Source: Tausonia pullulans
Lineage: Eukaryota; Basidiomycota; Tremellomycetes; Cystofilobasidiales; Mrakiaceae
Assembly (NCBI GenBank): GCA_951802195.1
Contig: OX637630.1
Coordinates: 248,001-312,000, forward strand
Direction of reading: 5' to 3'
Length of the DNA stretch: 64,000 bases
A model generated the notes under the pieces. That model did not search any database and was not told the DNA's origin. It worked only from the letters and a program-made list of their open reading frames with translations. Each line of letters opens with the position of its first letter. Position 1 is the stretch's first letter. Position numbers and translations under genes: made by a program. This document shows positions 62,647 through 63,219 of this stretch, one piece after another.

Positions 62647-62653
62647 AAAAAAA
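62647..62653 (-). terminator. Pol III terminator (T7) after the permuted tRNA
   Basis: Seven T on the minus strand, beginning 8 nt after the last base of the 5' half (A37 at 62662). A run of this length and position is the standard RNA polymerase III stop. Confidence 0.7.
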
Positions 62654-62661
62654 CCTTAAAG

Positions 62662-62736
62662 TACGAGTGACGCGCTCTACCACTGAGCTATCAGGGCAGG
62701 AGCCCCAAACCAGGTTTGAACTGGTGACCTCATCAT
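62662..62736 (-). tRNA. Circularly permuted tRNA-Thr(CGU) gene
   Basis: Read on the minus strand, the 3' half comes first: A38 (62736), TGATG (62731-62735), variable AGGTC (62726-62730), T stem ACCAG/CTGGT around loop TTCAAAC (62709-62725), acceptor TTGGGGC (62702-62708) and T73 (62701). A linker CCT (62698-62700) follows. The 5' half is next: acceptor GCCCTGA (62691-62697), TA, D arm GCTC-AGTGGTA-GAGC (62674-62688), G26, CGTCA (62668-62672) and loop bases CTCGTA (62662-62667). Joining nucleotide 37 to 38 gives a normal 72-nt class I tRNA. All 7 acceptor pairs (two G-U), 4 D, 5 anticodon (one G-U) and 5 T pairs form. T8, A14, G15-C48, G18G19, T54T55C56 and A58 are present. Anticodon CGT at 34-36 reads ACG (Thr); G1-C72 and C2-G71 fit yeast threonine identity. 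No 5' half able to pair lies upstream, and no 3' half lies downstream. Confidence 0.88.
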
Positions 62737-62752
62737 ACAACTCGAATTTTCG

Positions 62753-62763
62753 CCACTGGACTA
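62753..62763 (-). promoter_or_regulatory. A-box-like Pol III promoter element in the leader of the permuted tRNA
   Basis: TAGTCCAGTGG fits the A-box consensus TRGYNNANNGG. It starts 42 nt before the B box GTTCAAACC (62713-62721) in the T arm; in the rejoined tRNA the same interval is 44 nt. It differs from the true D-arm A box (TAGCTCAGTGG) at two positions. Because permutation puts the D arm after the T arm, this leader copy restores the normal A-then-B order for TFIIIC. Confidence 0.6.
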
Positions 62764-62842: not shown

Positions 62843-63219
62843 CAACCACCATCCCGGTGGTTCGACCAACCCCCCCCCCCCCTTCTCACGGCGCCCATCA
62901 CGCCGTCCGGCCAACCATCCCCAGTGGTTCGACCAACCCCCTTCCGGCCAACCACCATCCCGGTGGTTCGACCAACCCCCCCCCCCTCTCACGGCGCCCA
63001 TCACGCCGTCCGGCCAACCATCCCCAGTGGTTCGACCAACCCCCTTCCGGCCAACCACCATCCCGGTGGTTCGACCAACCCCCCCCCCCCTCTCACGGCG
63101 CCCATCACGCCGTCCGGCCAACCATCCCCAGTGGTTCGACCAACCCCCCCCCCCCCTCTCACGGCGCCCATCACGCCGTCCGGCCAACCATCCCCAGTGG
63201 TTCGGCCAACCCTCTTCCC
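62843..63219 (+). repeat. GC-rich minisatellite, about 104-bp unit, nearly three to four partial copies
   Basis: The unit alternates AACCACCATCCCGGTGGTT (a short inverted repeat), GGTTCGACCAACC, a C run of 9-14, CTCACGGCGCCCATCACGCC, GTCCGGCCAACCATCCCCAG and TGGTTCGACCAACCCCCTTC. Copies differ mainly in C-run length; the last copy lacks the inverted-repeat part and decays at about 63205. It is open in more than one frame, which explains apparent ORFs here, but nothing suggests a protein. GGTTCGA, the core of a Pol III B box, recurs in each unit. Confidence 0.8.

Follow-up and report, generated by a model that had tools for sequence, protein, structure and literature searches.

Introduction

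By 2014, 34 permuted tRNA genes were known, from six unicellular algae and one archaeon, and most eukaryotes have none, according to the excerpted text of PMC3978253. The spacers of the eukaryotic genes are 5–74 nt long (Table 1 of PMC3978253). Cyanidioschyzon merolae has 11 permuted genes, one of which is a Thr(CGT) gene with its junction at 37/38 (same Table). Later reports, as far as their excerpts go, are algal: They include two further nucleomorph genomes and, in 2025, Auxenochlorella (PMC12633428). The excerpted description of tRNAscan-SE 2.0 mentions permuted tRNAs for archaea. The first-pass annotation of the DNA described here had listed C. merolae, some green algae and nucleomorphs, and Thermoproteales archaea as the places where these genes are established. 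In the excerpts of PMC3978253, Thermofilum pendens is the archaeal case. In the titles and abstract beginnings of the open-licence literature we have found no earlier report of a permuted tRNA in a fungus, which is not proof of absence.

We have analyzed a stretch of 64,000 nt from the basidiomycete Tausonia pullulans, which we call the window (C11:248001-312000), and have searched the assembly to which it belongs (23.86 Mb, 21 contigs). The window very likely contains a functional, type II (37/38) permuted nuclear gene for tRNA-Thr(CGU), one of a basidiomycete family of ten genes, whose product would mature through an RNA circle. As judged from the sequence, these genes are very probably functional, and what sets them apart from the reports we have found is the combination of a fungal host, multiple copies, a spacer of 3 nt and, in some copies, a leader with an A box.

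The window encodes a fungal-type adenylate cyclase. Among the named proteins listed, its cyclase exon is matched by Naganishia cerealis (54%) and Vanrija humicola (53%). For an exon of a P450 reductase, the best named matches listed are Mrakia frigida (71%) and Phaffia rhodozyma (66%). This suggests a Cystofilobasidiales-like basidiomycete yeast, the order in which both genera are placed. COX3 is found on an 18.8-kb contig, C21 (L090), where TGA is read as Trp. Its identity is at most 58% among the matches listed, which is distant for COX3.

Structure of the permuted gene

The gene is on the minus strand of the window, where the order from 5' to 3' is 3' half (36 nt), CCT, 5' half (36 nt). The 3' half, at 62701..62736, corresponds to nt 38–73 of tRNA-Thr(CGU) and includes the T arm, that is, the B box. 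The 5' half, at 62662..62697, corresponds to nt 1–37, the anticodon CGU being nt 34–36. Both halves are seen in the sequence, by ARAGORN and with a covariance model. The CCT spacer (62698..62700) leads from the discriminator base 73 to G1 and would be lost as the circle opens. The ordinary linear order, with the 5' half before the 3' half, is not the order of this gene.

On the same strand, the leader adjoining the 3' half (62737..62752) ends in TTGT, immediately before A38. A T7 run (62647..62653), 8 nt past nt 37, is a probable RNA polymerase III terminator.

The joined halves (72 nt) are identified by ARAGORN as tRNA-Thr(cgt), with stems of 7+4+5+5 bp, where 21 of 21 stem pairs are formed, loops of 7 nt each in the D, anticodon and T arms, and a variable loop of 5 nt. 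The first-pass annotation had claimed that joining 37 to 38 pairs every stem and leaves canonical loops, and ARAGORN bears this out. Its description of two swapped Thr(CGU) halves on one strand, with CCT between them, is correct base for base. The tertiary invariants it named (T8-A14, G15-C48, G18G19 with T55C56, a purine at 37) are all present and can be read off the sequence. The window as it stands gives no tRNA genes with ARAGORN and no matches at the gathering scores of Rfam.

Permuted covariance models

A permuted model without Thr was built from tRNAs for eight other amino acids, all taken from this genome (Ala, Asn, Asp, Glu, Lys, Met, Trp and Val). Its rows were permuted in silico at 37/38 and given arbitrary 3-nt spacers, and four of them were padded by one base in the variable loop. 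In the 64-kb window, with E values up to 10 allowed, this model has a single match, 62662-62736 on the minus strand, with 66.7 bits and E 1.9e-21, a rough value because the calibration of the model was short. At the nine other permuted loci described below it gives 64.6–67.4 bits, and anything else in the 19 sources scanned stays at or below 29 bits. We reject a chance pairing of two fragments, given the 66.7 bits that a model free of Thr reaches in the window. That chance agreement was very unlikely had already been claimed from the sequence, and both this E value and the same order at ten loci confirm it.

A first model, R1, included two Thr rows. With it, the ten permuted loci score 76.4–81.1 bits, and anything else in the genome sources scanned scores at most 31.2 bits. 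Its weaker matches fall on halves of linear tRNAs wherever the coordinates were compared. The R1 scan covered the window and 36 of the loci L001-L060, plus further sources; the other 24 loci overlap these or the window (L003, L007 and L013 partly). No other permuted tRNA family appears at a comparable score with models R1 and R3 in loci totalling 295,800 letters, overlaps included, of the 23.86 Mb.

Exact pattern scans of viral_contigs and genome_contigs gave no matches. A looser scan of the viral sequences gave four, all of them inside tRNA genes which are linear by ARAGORN. Three of the four are linear Thr(UGU) genes, which reach 37.2 bits with model R1.

A family of ten loci

When the joined tRNA is used as a query, the whole assembly gives 20 matches, ten to the 5' half and ten to the 3' half. 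They pair up at ten loci, found in C4 (three), C9 (four), C11 (one) and C15 (two), and at each of them the order is 3' half, 3 nt, 5' half. A D-arm pattern search of the assembly finds the same ten loci and nothing else. An assembly error can be rejected, as there are ten loci with differing flanks. The overall reading of the first-pass annotation, a circularly permuted tRNA-Thr(CGU) gene in a fungus, thus finds support in the ten loci and in the covariance model.

Only six of the 75 columns vary among the ten units: the three of the spacer, one in the D loop, nt 49 and nt 65. The last two belong to the T stem and vary jointly, from A-U to G-C. The 5' half is identical at nine loci, with a single D-loop change at C9:1028 kb, and the 3' half is identical at five loci and 94% identical at the remaining five. 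The spacer is always exactly 3 nt long: CCT, AAA, TGC (five copies) or TGG (three copies).

The flanks show recent duplication of the three C9 copies with a TGG spacer, and likewise of two C4 copies. Seven loci remain, since recent duplicates are counted once. The likeness of the adjacent 100 nt on either side is not significant among these seven loci (21 pairs, lowest p 0.057), as compared with null windows drawn from the flanks of the same loci, which are not independent because some of the source loci are duplicates. Null windows of the same origin were used for the A box, the T run and the relics of outer halves discussed below.

Farther upstream, the window copy, the C4 pair and C15:389 kb have a common minisatellite. 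In the window it occupies 62843-63212, with units of 39–103 bp, and contains a B-box-like motif, GGTTCGACC, on the strand opposite to the permuted gene. Three other permuted copies, C4:630 kb, C4:641 kb and C15:389 kb, have related repeats on their upstream side. We have also observed that six of the ten permuted Thr genes have a tRNA-Ser(CGA) gene with a long intron (62–86 nt) nearby, at a distance of about 0.35–0.46 kb (L036, L037, L038, L041, L042, L045).

The ten units might be dead relics, or a dispersed repeat derived from a tRNA, unexpressed as tRNA. Points in favor of such an origin are the recent segmental duplication of three copies on C9 and two on C4, the minisatellite which some copies share upstream, and an A box which is not in every copy. 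We consider it very improbable. Among loci that show no relationship in the neighboring 100 nt, hardly any of the 72 tRNA positions varies, and the single change in a stem involves both partners. Local decay is exemplified by a Thr(AGU)-like relic, which lies some 350 nt away from one of the C9 copies. The T runs and the use of ACG codons, given in the following sections, also argue against relics.

Linear threonine tRNA genes

The anticodon arm of the linear Thr genes of this genome is CGTCACTAGTAATGATGAGGTC, and the joined permuted arm is the same except for C instead of A at nt 34. The permuted junction is placed at 37/38 because of this equality. The linear Thr(AGU) also agrees with the permuted Thr(CGU) in the variable loop, which is identical. 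It differs in its acceptor, D and T arms, and has the normal order and no intron.

Comparing the linear Thr(AGU) with the three permuted variants, all 17 pairs tested, which belong to the acceptor, T and anticodon stems but not to the D stem, stay standard, a comparison that rests mainly on one contrast because three of its four rows are near-identical. In seven of these pairs both partners differ; four of the seven lie in the acceptor stem, to which each half contributes one strand.

Searching the assembly for the arm pattern, with nt 34 left free and at most three mismatches tolerated, gives 24 sites. Of these, 21 are exact and all have AGT; the other three, on C9, have three mismatches. Two of the exact arms have been read fully as linear genes (C3 and C14), the others are known from the pattern match alone. 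With this pattern, the assembly shows no linear arm carrying CGT or TGT. A linear Thr(CGU) model run on 13 sources gives no linear Thr(CGU) either, and its best match is a Phe gene. Taken together, the assembly searches find no linear Thr(CGU), with the reservation that a strongly diverged Thr(CGU) or Thr(UGU) could escape (63 of 897 candidates were scored in the tRNA family search). The first-pass annotation had asked whether another tRNA-Thr(CGU) exists: There are nine more permuted copies, and no linear copy has been found in these searches.

Seven linear tRNAs used as query gave 54 matches listed (40 of 145 candidates scored), 48 of which are full-length linear Phe or Ile genes; other families, among them nearly all Thr(AGU), fall outside these listed matches. 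Eight pattern sites considered as other Thr gene candidates were rejected, as all have the anticodon of Arg(CCT).

Decayed Thr(AGU)-like sequences lie about 350–450 nt from the three permuted genes with a TGG spacer, at C9:1189.4 kb, C9:1203.8 kb and C9:1223.4 kb. The one at C9:1189.4 kb has been read (L074:4371-4433, minus strand), while the other two are pattern matches with three mismatches.

Probable transcription signals

All ten copies have a run of 4–8 T starting 0–8 nt past nt 37. In the outer flanks, such a run is found in 235 of 8640 windows of 15 nt. T4 is absent inside all ten permuted units, including the space between the halves.

An A-box matrix was built from 20 A boxes of linear genes. 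In the leader of the window gene it detects an A-box-like element, TAGTCCAGTGG, at 62753..62763 on the minus strand, 27 nt before nt 38, with a score of 13.6. Four of the ten copies have scores of 13.6–14.4, which none of 920 null windows reaches. They represent three of the seven loci (the window, C15:389 kb and the C4 pair), with the A box 27, 38 or 51 nt ahead of nt 38; the remaining copies have A-box p values of 0.075–0.314. These three loci share the far upstream minisatellite, while their near flanks and their A boxes differ.

In some copies, then, the sequence has an A-then-B order, with the A box in the part of the predicted transcript that would be discarded. This A box would have been kept or acquired in the leader, which would put the A and B boxes in their normal order. 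If true, it would show how a permuted gene may work where tRNA genes use A and B boxes.

Proposed processing of the transcript

We propose that RNA polymerase III makes a transcript of leader, 3' half, 3-nt spacer and 5' half that closes with a short run of U. This RNA would fold into a pre-tRNA which is open in its anticodon loop, at 37/38. Both ends would be trimmed by the tRNA splicing endonuclease, and a ligase would join A37 to A38, giving a circle from which RNase P and RNase Z would excise the 3-nt spacer. CCA would be added after this removal.

Candidates for this machinery are present in the genome. The splicing endonuclease domain PF01974 is found in C1 and C7 as partial matches of 38.7 and 27.5 bits (cut-off 27), and the tRNA ligase domain PF09511 in C6, its best piece having 92.1 bits (cut-off 28.3). 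Many linear tRNAs contain an intron (Lys, Asp, Cys, Ser(CGA) and Pro are examples), which ARAGORN mostly places at or beside 37/38. The TTGT at the end of the leader of the window copy is also the intron end of the linear Asp genes read here.

The potential for a structure of the bulge-helix-bulge type at the junction varies among copies. In yeast, splicing is signalled by the pairing of C32 with the base three positions ahead of nt 38. A G which could form this pair is found three bases before nt 38 in six of the ten copies. The window copy is not among them: It could instead pair CTCG, which is C32-G35 of its 5' half, with the CGAG at 62741-62744 of its leader (minus strand), a possible splicing helix. 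Free folding of the unmodified precursors recovers from 0 to 16 of the 21 tRNA pairs, and is poor in several copies.

Could the halves be joined in trans between two transcripts, by a dimer or split-tRNA route, and not within one circularised transcript? Ten transcripts with a near-identical core would permit it, yet we give it even less credit than the relics. The constant 3-nt spacer would suit a 4-nt loop on the acceptor stem within a single molecule. Algal permuted tRNAs, moreover, pass through a circle: In algae the permuted precursor, the circle and the mature tRNA have all been detected, with splicing and RNase enzymes as the proposed actors (PMC3978253, as excerpted). A circle made from one transcript is the route we prefer.

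Probable decoding of ACG and possible origin of the family

ACG accounts for 59 of the 157 Thr codons in five stretches of the window, not all of which are verified exons. With nt 34 as inosine, Thr(AGU) would decode ACU, ACC and ACA. The permuted genes are the sole reader of ACG that we have identified, because no linear CGU or UGU gene has been found. The permuted Thr(CGU) genes are probably the main reader of this codon, a role deduced from gene content.

The possibility that we have noticed only the inner halves of two ordinary linear tRNA-Thr genes in tandem may be dismissed as next to impossible: A gapped 5'-half match upstream of the C4:641 kb copy is what an origin by duplication might leave, but the ten 5' and ten 3' halves listed for the assembly are all permuted at 3 nt with no outer halves, and downstream 3'-half relics do not rise above chance (p 0.19–0.99). 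The C4:641 kb copy is the only one with 5'-half likeness beyond the A box (it includes GACTCGT, with a score of 20 and p 0.022 of 680 windows); this p value belongs to one of seven loci tested and does not survive seven tests.

Returning to functional permuted genes, a broader reading can be proposed. A fungal lineage may have swapped all its linear tRNA-Thr(CGU) genes for permuted ones, so that ACG decoding would hang on an RNA circle being made and opened, and in some copies a type 2 promoter may have been rebuilt by the A box of a discarded leader. We would judge this full reading about evenly balanced between true and false.

Comparison with known permuted tRNAs

A family of ten copies in a fungus would show that, beyond algae and archaea too, permuted genes can come into being and end up supplying most of a given tRNA. 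It would also mean that a relative of culturable yeasts possesses such genes. A tRNA which is "missing" according to finders of linear genes may be permuted, as in Auxenochlorella (PMC12633428, as excerpted).

The comparisons which follow are with the excerpted text and Table 1 of PMC3978253. Thermofilum pendens resembles T. pullulans in its very short spacers, of 1 and 7 nt (Table 1). It differs in having its junction at 59/60 and an encoded CCA, and in being an archaeon (Table 1). In Ostreococcus, Micromonas and the Bigelowiella nucleomorph the junction is at 37/38 in all but one gene, as here (Table 1). These are algae, with spacers of 5–64 nt, and their permuted tRNAs are of the Ser, Leu, Cys, iMet, Arg and Asn types (PMC3978253).

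C. merolae also has the 3' half first, a T stretch behind the 5' half and no encoded CCA; its junction is at 37/38 in six of the eleven genes, and in one case, Thr(CGT), even the isoacceptor is the same (PMC3978253). On the other hand, C. merolae has one gene per type (two for Gly(CCC)), a spacer of 31 nt in its Thr(CGT) gene and a TATA-like upstream signal (PMC3978253), whereas T. pullulans has ten copies, a 3-nt spacer and an A box in the leader of some of them, all in a fungal host.
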